Source of the DNA: Cellulomonas sp. KRMCY2
GTDB taxonomy: Bacteria > Actinomycetota > Actinomycetes > Actinomycetales > Cellulomonadaceae
Assembly (NCBI RefSeq): GCF_000526515.1
Contig: NZ_JAGF01000001.1
Coordinates: forward strand, 4,278,001-4,342,000
Reading direction: 5' to 3'
DNA: 64,000 nucleotides
Below, piece by piece: positions 4,100-56,311 of the stretch; the first letter of the stretch is position 1, and every line of letters starts with the position of its first letter. Under the pieces are notes generated by a model. That model was not told where the DNA came from, searched no databases, and saw only the letters and a program-made list of their open reading frames with translations. The translations under genes were made by a program, and so were the position numbers.

Positions 4100-5029
4100 T
4101 CAGGCTCGGGGATGGGCTTGGAGGTACGACTGGCGGAGCCGGTCGGCACTCACGTGGGTGTATCGCTGAGTCGTCGCAAGCGTCGCATGCCCGAGGACCT
4201 CCTGAACGCTACGAAGGTCCGACCCGCCCTGAAGGAGGTGGGTCGCGGCCGTGTGACGCAGTCCGTGCGGCGCGATGTCCTCGACGCCGGCTCGGCGGGC
4301 CGCACGGTGGACGAGCGTCCTGACCTGCCGCTGGTCGATCCGCTGACCGCGGGTCCCGAGCAGGAGGGCGGGACCGGAGGTCGCCGTGGCGAGCCGTGGG
4401 CGGCCGACCTCGAGCCACCGGGTGACGGCCCTGGCAGCGGGAACCCCGAACGGGACCACCCTCTCCTTGGCCCCCTTGCCCATGACCCGCAGGAGACGTG
4501 ACGCATGGTCCACGTCGCCGACATCGGCACCGACGAGCTCTCCGACTCGCACCCCGGTCGCGTACAGCAGCTCGACGGCCGCCCAGTCGCGCAGGGCAAG
4601 GGGGTCGTCGTCCGATGCCGTCTCGCGTGCGGCGTCGAGCATCGCGGCCGCCGACGGGACGCCGAGGGCAACAGGGAGCGTGGCGCCGGGCTGCGCCGTG
4701 ATGAGCCGTACCGCGGGATCGGCAGCGATCGCACCCTCGCGGGCCGCCCAGGCGTAGAAGGCGCGGACAGCGGCACCACGGCGGGCGATCGTGGCACGGG
4801 CCAGTCCGCCGCTGATCATCGAGGCGAGCCAGCCGCGCAGCAGCGGGAGCTCGACCTGGTCCCAGGTCAGGCCTCGCCGTCGTGCGAAGCCGAGCACGTG
4901 CCGGACGTCGCCGCAGTAGGCGCGCACGGTATGGCTCGACATGCCCCGCTCGGCCTCCAGATGCACCTCGAACGCCGCCACGACCTCCTCATCGGTCATG
5001 GCAGCGGTAGTGCCCGGCTTCGGGTGCAT
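4100..5029 (-). CDS. xerC: Tyrosine recombinase XerC
   Basis: XerC acts with XerD at the dif site to resolve chromosome dimers. The 309-residue protein has an N-terminal SAM-like core-binding domain and a C-terminal catalytic domain. Catalytic elements seen: Arg in TGVRVGEL, Lys in [14 protein letters not shown] (HxxR), the second His in LGHATL and the nucleophile Tyr in TQRYTH. The start is uncertain: ATG 5029 has no clear ribosome site, and ATG 4999 (11th codon) is possible. It lies between dprA and whiG. No mobile-element features accompany it, so a housekeeping role is more likely than an integrase. Confidence 0.92.
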
Positions 5030-35071: not shown

Positions 35072-35842
35072 ATGAGCACCGTTCGCGCAGCGGCCGCAGC
35101 GGCCGGCAACACTCCCGTCGTCGAGCATGGTGCGCGCCTCGGCTACGCCGCCGGCGGCCTGCTCCATCTCCTGCTGGCGTGGGTCACCGTCCAGATGGCC
35201 TGGACCTCGTACGGCGGCGAGGCGGACCAGTCCGGCGCGCTCGGCACCCTCGCGGGGAGCGCCGTCGGCTCGATCCTGCTGTGGGCGACAGCGGCCGGTT
35301 TCGCGCTGCTCGCCGTCTGGCAGGTCATCGAGGCCATCGCCCGGCGCGACCTCGGTACCTGGCTCAAGTCCGCAGGCAAGGCCGCGGTGTACGTCGCGCT
35401 CGCCTGGACGGCCGCGTCGGTCGTCCAGGGTTCGGGTGGCAGCTCGGACACGTCCGGGATGACCGCGTCGCTGATGGCCAAGCCATACGGCAGGGCTCTG
35501 CTCGCGGCTGTCGGCCTGACCGTTCTCGGGATCGCGGTCTACCACGTCGTCAAGGGGTGGCGCGCGAGCTTCCTGGCCGACCTCCGTGAGCACCCCGGGA
35601 CCTGGACGGTGACTACGGGACGCATCGGCTACGTCGCCAAGGGGGTGGCGCTGGCCCTGGTCGGCGCCTTCCTCGTCGGTGCGGGGGCGACGGGCGAGTC
35701 GGAACGCGCCAAGGACCTCGACGGTGCGCTCCGGTCGGTCCTGGAGGCGCCGCTGGGCAAGGTCCTGCTGACGCTCGTCGCCATCGGCTTCGCCGCCTAC
35801 GGCCTGTACTCGTTCGCGCGCGCGCGCTACGCCCGGGTCTGA
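35072..35842 (+). CDS. DUF1206 membrane protein
   Basis: A 256-residue protein with six predicted membrane segments arranged as three repeated pairs, the DUF1206 pattern; each repeat begins with a Gly-Tyr-rich turn such as [17 protein letters not shown] or [16 protein letters not shown]. Function unknown. ATG 35072 starts the conserved region. Its end overlaps the convergent PAP2 gene by 16 bases. Divergent from ileS. Confidence 0.85.
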
Positions 35843-36522
35843 CCGGCGTCTCGTCGGAGGTAGCGCCAGGCCAGCCACGCGCAGACCAGACCGGTGGCCA
35901 TCCCGACGAGCACGTCCGACGGGTGGTGCATGCCCCGGTAGAGCCGGGAGTACGCCACCAGGAGCGGGACCGCCAGACACGCCGCGGTGGCCGCCCAGCG
36001 CAGCACGGGATGGCTGATCCGCTGGCACAGCAGGGCCAGGGTCACGTAGAACGCCGTCGACGCCCCGACGTGGCCGCTGGGGAAGCCCGACGTCGGCGGG
36101 GAGACGTCGAGCGGCTCCACCCCCGGCCGGCCACGGCCGACGGCCGCCGCCGAGGTCACGAAGACCGCCGACTGCACCGAGATCGCGATGGCCGGGACGA
36201 CCGCGAGCCACCACTGGCGCGTGCGCCACCAGACCACCGCCATCACGACGGCGCACACCGCGATGATGAGCAGCGTCCCGCCGATGGCGGACCACGCGGC
36301 GGTGAACGCGTCGAGAGCCGGTGTCCGCGAGGCGGCCAACGCCTCGTTCACCGCGACCTCGCCCGGCAACCCGTCGAGCGGTCCGACGATCAGCAACCCG
36401 ATCGACACGATCGCGAGCCAGAGGCCGAGTGCGGGGATCAGGGTGCGGCGCACGAGGTCGTTCCAGGCTTGGGCGAACGTCGGCTGGGACGGGTCGAGCC
36501 CGAAGCGGTGCAGGAAGGCCAT
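35827..36522 (-). CDS. PAP2-family membrane phosphatase (first)
   Basis: A 231-residue protein with about six membrane segments. PAP2 motifs: GRGRPG (motif 1, with the Arg-Pro pair), PSGHVG (motif 2, catalytic His) and [16 protein letters not shown] (motif 3, nucleophile His). Members remove phosphate from lipid phosphates such as phosphatidate or undecaprenyl pyrophosphate on the outer membrane face. The exact substrate is not predictable. Its ATG overlaps the stop of a second PAP2 gene (ATGA). Confidence 0.88.
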
Positions 36523-37217
36523 CAGTTCCCCTCAAGGTCGTGGACGGTGGTGGACGGGCGCCGGCCGACGAAACCGAGGTAGGAGGCCCCCGCCATCGCG
36601 CAGCCCAGGGCGACACCCGCAACGACGTCGGACGGGTAGTGGGCGCCGAGGTACACGCGGTCCAGTCCGGTCACGACCACCGCCGCGGCCACAGCCCCCG
36701 GGACCGCGATCCGACCGCGCGGGCCGAGCAGCGGCCAGACGAGCAGGACGAAGATGAGGCCGGCGGACGCGGTGTTGGTCGCGTGCCCGGACGGGAAGCT
36801 GTAGCCGGGGGCGTGGGCGACCGCGTCCTCGACGACCGGACGTGCCCGTCGCACGAGGAGCTTGACCAGCAGCCCGAGGTTCCACGAGACCATCAACGTG
36901 ATGAACGCCCACAGGGCGCGCGAGGCCAGGCCGTGCCGGCGCCAGACCCACACGCACGCCCCCGTCACGACGAGGTTGACCCACCGCGCTTCGAACGCAG
37001 CCTGCCAGATCAGCAGCACACTGCGCAGCGCGGGGTTCGCCCGCGTGACGTCGGTGGCTGCCGCGATCGCCAGCTCGTCGACGTGGACGACGGGCGAGAC
37101 CTGGGCGCGGATCAGGAAGGCCAGAGCAGCCACCGGGAGACCGAAGCCGAGTGCGAAGCCGACCGCACGTCCCATCCGGCGCCACCGCGGGACGTGGATC
37201 GGCCCGTGGTCAACCAC
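36522..37217 (-). CDS. PAP2-family membrane phosphatase (second)
   Basis: A 231-residue paralogue of its downstream neighbour, of the same length. Motifs: [16 protein letters not shown] and [16 protein letters not shown]. Again about six membrane segments. GTG 37217 is given; ATG 37175 (15th codon) is possible, and neither has a good ribosome site. The pair overlaps by 4 bases and is probably translated together. Confidence 0.87.
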
Positions 37218-37415
37218 CGGACCGCCGCAAGGGTCGGCGCGGGGCTCGCTGCCCGATCATTCGGAAAGGCTAGGACGAGGCTGGCGTCGGCGCGCGTCGG
37301 AGCGTCCCGCTCGAGCCCGTCAGTCCCCGATCCGGCTCGACGGGCAGACGGGACCATCCCGGTACTGGTTGGATACGGACATATCAGGCATCCGTCCAGC
37401 GGCAGGAGGTGACGC

Positions 37416-38153
37416 ATGGCGGGCGACGCAGCGCGCGCCGGCACGGGTCCGGACGCTGCGGACGGGCTGTCGCGTGCGATCCTCGACCGCCGGCCCTCCG
37501 CCGCGCGAGGATCGGGCGCGACAGCCGCACCCGCTCCGGCGCCGCCGCCGGTGGACCTCGACCGGTCCATGGCGCGCGACTACGCCGACGTCGTCGCAGC
37601 GGTCCGTCTCATCTCGGGCGACCGGAGCCGGGCCGAGGAGGCCGTCCAGGACGCCCTCGTGGCCCTGGTGTCCCGGCCGCCGGCCGAGCCGCTCCGCTCC
37701 GCCAGTGCCTGGGTCACCGTCGTCGCCTCCAACGCCGCCCGGTCGCACTACCGCCGGACGGGTCTCGAGCAACGCCCGCTCGACCGGGTCGGCGGAGCCA
37801 CCGGGCCGGCGTCGACCGGCACGGCATCCACCGGCACGGCATCCACCGGCACTGCGTCCACCGAGATCGAGTCCACCGGCATCGAGTCCACCGCGATCCA
37901 GGACGACGAGATCCAGGACGACGACGCGGCCGACCGACTCGCTCAGCAGGTGGCGGTGCGCGACGCGATCGGACGCCTCCCGCTCGGGCAGCGCCAGGTG
38001 TGCGTGATGCACTAGTACCGCGACGCCTCGGTCGCGGACATCGCGGCGGGCCTCGGTGTCACCGAGGCGACCGTCACGACCCAGCTCTACCGGGCACGCG
38101 TCGCGCTCGCCGTCGCCCTCGGCGCGACCGTCGAGGAGGAGCCCGGTGCCTGA
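37416..38153 (+). pseudogene. ECF-type sigma factor gene interrupted by an amber codon in region 4
   Basis: The reading frame is sound at both ends. It starts at ATG 37416 behind a strong AGGAGGTGACGC. Region 2 is recognisable (YADVVAAVRLISGDRSRAEE, ASAWVTVVASNAARSHYRR). Region 4 begins RLPLGQRQVCVMH, then TAG at 38013-38015, then continues YRDASVADIAAGLGVTEATV and LYRARVALAVAL to a TGA at 38151. Relatives have aromatic residues here, so TAC to TAG is the simplest change. The truncated 199-residue product lacks the -35-binding helix-turn-helix. A six-unit 15-bp repeat encodes the linker. A sequencing error or readthrough is possible. Confidence 0.85.
37815..37904 (+). repeat. 15-bp minisatellite in the sigma factor linker
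   Basis: Six units (consensus ACCGGCACGGCATCC, degenerating rightward) at 37815, 37830, 37845, 37860, 37875 and 37890. They encode a Thr/Ser/Gly/Ile-rich linker between sigma regions 2 and 4. The period is a multiple of three. Confidence 0.85.
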
Positions 38154-39200
38154 GCCCGAGCGCACCTCCCTGGACGCGATCGTGCGCCGCGCGCTGCACG
38201 ATGCGGCGCAGCCCGGCGACCCGACGGGGGTCGCCGAGCTGGTCCGTGCGCGCCTGGTGAACGATCCGCACCTGCCCGGTCACGGCAGTCCCGGCAGTCC
38301 CGGCAGTCCCGGCAGTCCCGGCAGTCGCAGCGGCGGCCCAGGGGCCGTCGGCACCGCACCCGGCGTCCCCACCGCCCGTCGGTCCGCTGCCGGGGCCGAC
38401 CCGCCCGGCGGACGCACGGCAGGCGGGTGGGTCGCGTCGGAGCCGGTGAGCGGACGGCTCGGTGGCCCAGGCGTGCGGGTCCGGTGGATCGCCGGCGCCG
38501 CGGCGGCGATGATCGTCATCGGCGCGGGACTGGTGTTCTCCGGTGTGCTCGACCGGCCGGGCCTCGGCGTCGTCGACGGCAACAACGTGGCCGTCACGGC
38601 CGACGACGCCCCGCGCACCTCCGCCACCGCCGACGCGTGCCCCGGCGCCGATGCCTTCGGGTCGCTCGTCGCGGACTACCGGGACGACTCCGCCGGCCGG
38701 GCCCGCGACGGCTGCCGCCCGGTGGTCGCCGAGACCGGAGCGGCCGCCGGGATCACCGCCGCGCCGACCGTCGGGCCGACGGCGACGCCCCTGAGCCGGC
38801 CCCGGCACCGGCCCCGACGACCGACCCCGTACCGGACCCCAGCCCGACCACACCGGGGCCGCCGACCAACGCCGCGCCGCACCTGGTCCAGGTCGCCGCG
38901 GCCGACGCCGAGATCTGGACCTCCGACAGTGCGGGGACCTGTGGGCCGACCAGCACGCAGGTGAGCGCCGACGCCACGGACGACGCGGGGGTCGCGGGCG
39001 TCACGATGAGCTGGTCGGGCACCACCGTCCCGATGTCCTCGGTCGCCTGGACGTGGAGCGGGACCTTCGGCGGGTTCACCAATGCCGACGTGCCGACCTC
39101 GACCTACACCGACGTCGCGGTGACGGTGACCGCCGTCGATGCGGCCGGTGCGTCGGCCGCGGCGCAGGTCACGGTCCGCGTCCGGTACTGCCCGGTCTGA
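38146..39200 (+). pseudogene. Membrane anti-sigma-like protein gene with a -1 frameshift
   Basis: GTG 38146 overlaps the sigma gene's end by 8 bases. The first part encodes VPEPERTSLDAIVRRALHDAA, a Gly-Ser-Pro repeat, and one membrane segment (VRWIAGAAAAMIVIGAGLVF). Near the C-run 38788-38791 sense coding moves to another frame: before it the frame reads AAPTVGPTATP, after it PEPAPAPAPTTDPVPDP and a Thr/Val/Ser-rich extracellular domain ending in VRYCPV (stop 39198-39200). One extra C would restore a single product of about 350 residues. The anti-sigma role is inferred from operon position and topology only; no ZAS motif is seen. Confidence 0.75.
38284..38328 (+). repeat. 9-bp tandem repeat, five units
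   Basis: GGCAGTCCC units at 38284, 38293, 38302, 38311 and a variant at 38320, encoding Gly-Ser-Pro repeats in the cytoplasmic part of the membrane protein. Confidence 0.85.
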
Positions 39201-55451: not shown

Positions 55452-56224
55452 GCCTCCGGCTCGACCACCTGGCCTGGTCGGTCGAGGGACGCGTCATCCT
55501 CGGCGGCGTCGACTGCACCCCGCCGCGTCGCGGGCTGACCGGACTGCTCGGCCCCAACGGCGCAGGCAAGTCGACCCTGCTGCGGCTGATCGCAGGCGTC
55601 CTGCGCCCCGACGCCGGGCGCGCGCTGCTCGACGGCGACGACCTCCTCGCACTGCCGCGCCGCGAGCGCGCCCGTCGGGTCGCCCTGGTCGAGCAGGACT
55701 CCGCCTCGCAGGTGCCGCTCACCGTCCGCGACGCCGTGCTGCTCGGACGCACGCCGCACGGGTCGCGGTGGGGCGGGCTGACCGCGCACGACGAGGCAGT
55801 GGCCGACGCGGCGCTCGCCGAGGCGGGGGTCGTGGAATTCGCCGACCGACTGCTCGGGACGCTGTCCGGCGGCGAGCGGCAACGCGTCCACCTGGCCCGC
55901 GCCCTGGCACAGGACCCGGACCTGCTGCTCCTCGACGAGCCGACCAACCACCTGGACGTGCACGCCCAGCTCGACACCCTGGACGTCGTGCGCGGGCTGA
56001 CCGCACGGGGCGTCACGGTGCTCGCCGCGCTGCACGACCTGAACCTCGCCGCCGCCGCCTGCGACCACCTGGTGCTGCTCGACGCCGGGCGCGTGGTGGC
56101 GACCGGCCCGGTCGCCGAGGTGCTGCGCCCGGAGGTCCTCGAACCGGTCTACCGCGTGCGCTGCCTCGTCATGACGCACCCGGAGACCGGCCGGCCCGTG
56201 CTGACCTTCGCGCCACGGGCCTGA
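55448..56224 (+). CDS. Proposed F420-0 ABC transporter ATPase
   Basis: A 258-residue FecE/BtuD-type ATPase. Walker A GPNGAGKSTLLRL, signature LSGGERQRVHLARAL, Walker B LLLLDEPTNHLD, and a switch His in ALHDLNLA. ATG 55448 overlaps the permease stop (ATGA), completing a tight three-gene importer operon. Confidence 0.87.
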   Translation: MSLRLDHLAWSVEGRVILGGVDCTPPRRGLTGLLGPNGAGKSTLLRLIAGVLRPDAGRALLDGDDLLALPRRERARRVALVEQDSASQVPLTVRDAVLLGRTPHGSRWGGLTAHDEAVADAALAEAGVVEFADRLLGTLSGGERQRVHLARALAQDPDLLLLDEPTNHLDVHAQLDTLDVVRGLTARGVTVLAALHDLNLAAAACDHLVLLDAGRVVATGPVAEVLRPEVLEPVYRVRCLVMTHPETGRPVLTFAPRA

Positions 56225-56260
56225 CCGTCGCGGCACGGGCCTGACCGTCGCGGCACGGGC
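56221..56260. repeat. 20-bp tandem duplication after the ATPase gene
   Basis: Bases 56221-56240 and 56241-56260 are identical and a partial third copy follows to about 56267. The first copy includes the stop codon of the ATPase gene. Confidence 0.85.
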
Positions 56261-56311
56261 CTGACCGGACCTCACCGCGAGGTCGTCGGACAACGCTGGC
56301 ACCATGGAGCG

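Follow-up and report, generated by a model that had tools for sequence, protein, structure and literature searches.

Does an amber codon inside region 4 of a sigma factor gene mark an unusual way of decoding, an error of the assembly or the decay of the gene? The question is raised by an ECF-type sigma frame of Cellulomonas sp. KRMCY2, located in a stretch of 64,000 nucleotides that was analysed as a whole and is called the window here. According to the evidence set out below, the locus most likely shows a two-gene regulatory switch of an ordinary kind that is going out of use, and not a new way of reading genes.

The frame runs from ATG 37416 through the in-frame TAG 38013-38015, at residue 200 of 245, to TGA 38151-38153. 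The TAG is the single internal stop, and the frame is otherwise open. That register is kept on both sides of the TAG had been claimed in the initial annotation, and the claim was borne out by codon use as well as by the open frame. Past the TAG the sigma frame scores 0.74 bits per codon, which is the score of coding DNA, against -0.87 and -0.99 for the other forward frames and 0.19 for the best antisense frame, the codon model having been trained on frames that include those of the window. The strong ribosome site noticed at the same time was found as AGGAGG at 37404-37409, 6 bases upstream of the ATG. No homopolymer surrounds the TAG, and the lesion has the look of a substitution. The alignment with residues 11-168 of the sigma factor of G019, a genome of another genus in the same family, is continuous across the TAG; its identity of 42.6% (BLAST, gaps counted) was obtained with low-complexity filtering off, in a run that also gave spurious matches down to E 4e-8.

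Domain searches place the TAG within region 4. Pfam recognized Sigma70_r2 (PF04542) above its cut-off at residues 57-115 (E 1.6e-7) and, with the TAG read as X, Sigma70_r4_2 (PF08281) at residues 180-231 (E 1.6e-10). The 45 codons past the TAG match Sigma70_r4_2 by themselves (E 5.7e-6, 26.3 bits vs a cut-off of 25.7), in agreement with the helix-turn-helix that the first reading of the sequence had recognized there. Truncation at the TAG would retain region 2, as was also expected, with 20 of the 52 residues of region 4, and the helix-turn-helix would be gone. A translated fragment should accordingly be unable to recognize the -35 element of a promoter. Region 4 is not contained in one translated product, and the gene is an ECF sigma factor by descent, not by its expected product. 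The linker between the Pfam boundaries of region 2 (end 115) and region 4 (start 180) has 64 residues and is much shorter in the relatives. The read-through sigma (P0001, TAG as X) passes the ECF superfamily model TIGR02937 with 53.3 vs 42.9 bits. With the SigE-family model TIGR02983 it stays under the cut-off (74.5 vs 141.55), and the intact sigma factors of G019 (96.6) and of L015 (119.5), the latter from a MAG labelled Microthrixaceae, are likewise under it.

The residue replaced by the stop was examined in an alignment of six relatives. The amber column holds Tyr in G019, L015, L016, L106 and L107, and His in L105. Since Tyr occupies the column in five of the six, a Tyr codon turned amber fits, and the single TAC to TAG change put forward initially is in line with it. 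In a four-row sigma alignment, 14 columns (stop included) are changed in the window only, compared with 12, 7 and 5 in the other rows, so that the count is not far above that of the most divergent relative, which weighs against decay. The features of the locus are collected in Table 1.

Table 1. Features of the sigma/partner locus in the window and of its counterparts in G019 and L015.
Feature	Coordinates	Strand	Basis or content
Truncated ECF-type sigma frame, 199 aa	37416..38015	+	region 2, repeat-swollen linker, start of region 4
15-bp tandem repeats coding the linker between regions 2 and 4	37798..37924	+	tandem repeat detection
TAG inside region 4, in frame	38013..38015	+	Tyr in 5/6 aligned relatives, His in 1
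Region 4 continuation (helix-turn-helix), same frame, TGA end	38016..38153	+	Pfam, codon scores
Partner 5' part: N-terminal domain and membrane-spanning stretch (by eye)	38146..38775	+	homology, codon score
9-bp tandem repeats within partner gene	38279..38326	+	tandem repeat detection
Region of the partner frame change	38763..38800	+	homology start, codon scores
Partner 3' part, another frame: P/T-rich and Ig-like, TGA 39198-39200	38787..39200	+	homology
Intact partner gene (G019 pair)	L003:252-1295	-	shared architecture
Intact partner gene (L015)	L015:5462-6601	+	shared architecture
28-base motif (G019)	L003 upstream of 1815	-	pattern search
28-base motif (L015)	L015 4875-4902	+	pattern search

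Tandem repeats were also detected at two other places in the window: a 33-bp unit at 1191-1310 (3.6 copies, 98% match) and a 20-bp unit, which is not a multiple of three, at 56201-56267 (3.3 copies, 95% match).

The intact relatives reveal what the sigma gene is paired with. In G019 it has an overlap of 8 bases with a second gene and in L015 one of 4 bases, and both genes are open in either genome. The partner proteins share one order of parts: a short N-terminal domain is followed by what looks by eye like a membrane-spanning stretch, and then come SH3-like, P/T-rich and Ig-like parts. The name SH3 was taken from a Pfam match to SH3_3 in L015 (E 0.016) and the name Ig from one to Big_13 in G019 (E 0.0099), both of them below threshold; every Pfam and NCBIfam model stayed below its cut-off for the intact partners, and no Pfam model named the partner frames of the window. 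The relatives thus bring to light a pair in which the partner of the sigma factor, with its SH3-like and Ig-like parts, lies below the cut-offs of both collections. The partner is probably an anti-sigma factor.

In the window, the partner begins at GTG 38146, 5 bases ahead of the sigma TGA, and its homology is divided between two frames. The N-terminal 45 aa gave Z 13.0 vs G019 and Z 5.2 vs L015, and the Ig-like part (from 38865, second frame) gave Z 9.8 and 12.0, respectively; none of 1000 shuffles reached the score in any of the four comparisons. As a control, the remaining two forward frames of this partner DNA gave Z -0.9 to 1.0. Codon scores change frame near 38773-38800, second-frame homology begins at 38763, and the coding bias is strong on both sides of the change. 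The SH3-like part, similar between G019 and L015 (Z 16.1), was undetectable in the window, for which the comparisons with the two gave Z 2.0 and 1.3. Two observations weigh against a broken partner gene: the N-termini of the G019 and L015 partners resemble each other only weakly (Z 3.9, 3 of 1000 shuffles), and under default BLAST filters both partner pieces stayed short of E 1e-4 against G019. With low-complexity filtering off, spurious matches down to E 4e-8 appeared. Partner homology is therefore based on the shuffle tests, the frame controls and the codon scores.

Compared with the intact homologues, the locus carries the frame-disrupting lesions of a pseudogene in both of its genes, namely the TAG in the sigma gene and, in the partner gene, the frame change together with an undetectable SH3-like part. 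By its sequence, the partner gene of the window appears broken, although the missing SH3-like part could be an old and harmless loss. The frame change and the SH3-like loss mean that the unit affected is the operon and that the sigma lesion is not isolated. This qualifies the initial annotation, which had described an otherwise intact sigma gene with a Tyr-to-amber change and a truncated product. The truncation and a frame open but for the TAG stood, and the Tyr-to-amber change fitted; the linker proved to be repeat-swollen and the overlapping partner gene proved to be broken as well.

The distribution of the sigma gene looks sporadic within the limits of the searches. With every candidate scored, the 199-residue sigma part had a match at E ≤ 1e-10 in only one of 19 genomes of the genus, its own, and the gene is thus no general feature of the genus. 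Among 221 genomes of the family, the read-through sigma was matched at E ≤ 1e-6 in 11, its own included, in a search that scored 12 candidates per genome, from which absence elsewhere does not follow; the best match besides its own genome was G019 (E 3.9e-19). A weaker match from this search, in G002 of the window's own genus (E 1e-9, 39%, residues 11-150), lies within a 706-aa open frame. In 394 genomes of the class, with 8 candidates per genome scored, a profile search gave four matches at E ≤ 1e-30, its own included; for the three from elsewhere, the genes that follow are by eye unlike the partner. The search of 396 genomes of the order with the partner N-terminal part returned no match even in the window's own genome and is hence uninformative.

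The neighbourhood was compared in the same manner. In 16 kb of G019, the sigma pieces alone matched at E ≤ 1e-4 out of 11 window pieces tried. The ABC gene downstream in the window has matches in 9 of the 19 genus genomes at E ≤ 1e-90. Two adjacent PAP2-family genes lie beside the sigma gene, at 35827-37217 on the minus strand of the window, and a similar pair is found elsewhere in the genome near G000:C1:2430225. Where such a pair occurs in six other genomes of the genus, sigma pieces are absent from its 1.5 kb flanks at E ≤ 1e-4. A phage origin was considered and rejected: for the sigma factor PHROGs returned four families, the best of which is a sigma family collected from phages (E 4e-11); for the two partner pieces it returned none.

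We regard a decaying two-gene pseudogene operon, consisting of an ECF sigma factor and a membrane-bound partner, as the probable explanation. By analogy with the usual ECF pairs, the sigma factor of the intact relatives would be tethered to the membrane by its partner and set free when the SH3-like and Ig-like parts of the latter sense a signal from outside. In this genome a nonsense change would have cut the sigma gene within region 4, and the partner gene would have been damaged by a change of frame and by the loss of its SH3-like part. As the sigma fragment is expected to be unable to recognize the -35 element, the switch is probably dead here. Expanded repeats in both the sigma and the partner gene support such a decay. 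Against it, the coding bias is still strong past the TAG and around the frame change, so that the decay must be recent.

The alternatives differ in how they treat these lesions. Intact coding sequence past the TAG is what would be expected if the codon were read through, or if the two halves acted as separate subunits in the manner of SigO-RsoA. Nevertheless, when the search for suppressor tRNA genes suggested by the initial annotation was run, none of the 45 tRNAs found in the genome had the anticodon CTA (Rfam search, all 45 places read with ARAGORN), and a suppressor tRNA was accordingly rejected. ARAGORN additionally reported a tRNA of unknown type at L044:1293-1378 (+), adjoining a tRNA-Trp and outside the 45 Rfam matches, which is probably spurious. 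Reassignment of TAG was likewise rejected, as TAG terminates 18 of 181 long reading frames and accounts for 45 of 395 stops tested in a 464-kb sample. A split sigma with a separately started region 4 gene was rejected too, because no ATG, GTG or TTG was found in the 45 codons past the TAG. Readthrough and a split sigma are thus left without support, and we consider either extremely improbable. It is unlikely, to a lesser degree, that the assembly consensus is wrong both at the TAG and at the frame change and that the two genes are intact in the cell. The strong coding signal flanking both lesions is compatible with such errors, and the frame change lies amid GC-rich sequence that contains short runs of C; the TAG, on the other hand, is substitution-like and outside homopolymers, the missing SH3-like part would require a separate cause, and the genome is one contig, 99.98% complete. 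The sample mentioned above (20 spaced 20-kb stretches plus the window, from a genome of 4,495,232 bases) provides base rates for both kinds of lesion. The 395 stops tested in it all end a coding-like stretch. After 12 of them the same frame goes on for at least 40 coding-like codons, and for 11 of the 12 a start codon occurs among the first 25 codons, as would be expected of a following gene. TAG 38013 is the only one of the 12 without such a start codon, and none of the other 394 stops tested resembles it. Loose frame-switch signals numbered 30 among 931 coding-like stretches, and two of them passed a stricter filter set post hoc (own frame ≤ -0.7, other frame ≥ 0.2 and above antisense, no nearby start codon): the window partner gene and L057 near 3082, by eye a long spurious frame before a membrane transporter-like gene. 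Such lesions do not abound in the sampled tenth of the assembly, and two fall within 800 bases of one operon, which favours decay over errors.

A further alternative is that the truncated sigma factor, with region 2 and part of region 4, still works together with the membrane-anchored N-terminal part of the partner, both being kept in a shortened form that might serve, for instance, as a decoy. In its favour, the pieces retained are region 2 and the partner N-terminal part. A precedent exists in Nocardia, where, according to an extract of PMC7509140, a truncated SigK partner still inhibits SigK. However, the Nocardia stop is found in several species (same extract), while here the 18 other genomes of the genus searched are without a match at E ≤ 1e-10, and homology and coding bias extend past both lesions, which is not expected for a long-established short form. 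We therefore judge the working short pair quite improbable. An operon trimmed rather than killed, in which the region 2 fragment and the short membrane-anchored partner would persist as decoys, by binding RNA polymerase or in competition with other ECF sigma factors, appears very improbable; the functional Nocardia remnant is the reason why we leave some slight probability to a short form that was retained. For the decaying operon, which we prefer, the consequence is mainly one of annotation, in that the sigma and partner genes should be marked as probable pseudogenes; otherwise the case is ordinary.

The upstream region was also compared with those of the relatives. A 28-base motif, GTCAACCTGA...CTCCTC...CGTC, stands in closely similar form and with equal spacing 5' of the G019 and L015 sigma genes; its pattern was written after both upstream stretches had been viewed. 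The pattern also hit a place in L106 that looks different, and L105 and L107 gave no match. For L015 the distance was counted from a chosen start, ATG 4917, the longest frame starting at 4764. Judged by its sequence, the motif is likely to be an autoregulatory promoter, and its GTCAACC...CGTC agrees with the AAC/CGT hallmark of ECF promoters described in an extract of PMC8103513. GTCAACC...CGTC was not found in the window at 37217-37450. GTCAACC occurs at 37209-37215, about 200 bases 5' of the ATG, and is followed at about the same spacing by GGTC, not CGTC. As GTCAACC is in excess in the window (11 observed vs 5.4 expected; 11 reached in 2 of 100 shuffles), this lone copy carries little weight, and it is possible that the sigma promoter was lost.

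Among the titles found in the literature none concerned an amber-cut sigma factor, and an extract of PMC3078919 holds nothing on a broken sigma gene. The locus is nevertheless readily placed beside known systems. It is similar to the ECF (group IV) sigma factors with membrane anti-sigma factors in that its sigma factor has regions 2 and 4 only and that the partner overlaps downstream and has, by eye, a membrane-spanning stretch. It differs from them by the amber codon in region 4 and by a linker of 64 residues, compared with the "less than 50" given as a criterion in the extract of PMC8103513. SigO-RsoA of Bacillus subtilis, according to the same extract, is a two-subunit sigma factor with regions 2 and 4 in separate frames, whereas the second part in the window has no start codon and continues in the frame of the first. 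The Nocardia locus, in the portion of PMC7509140 available, has a truncated rskA beside sigK, often annotated as a pseudogene, and resembles the window in having a stop codon within a sigma/anti-sigma pair; there it is the anti-sigma factor that is cut and its remnant is reported to work, whereas in the window the sigma factor itself is cut.
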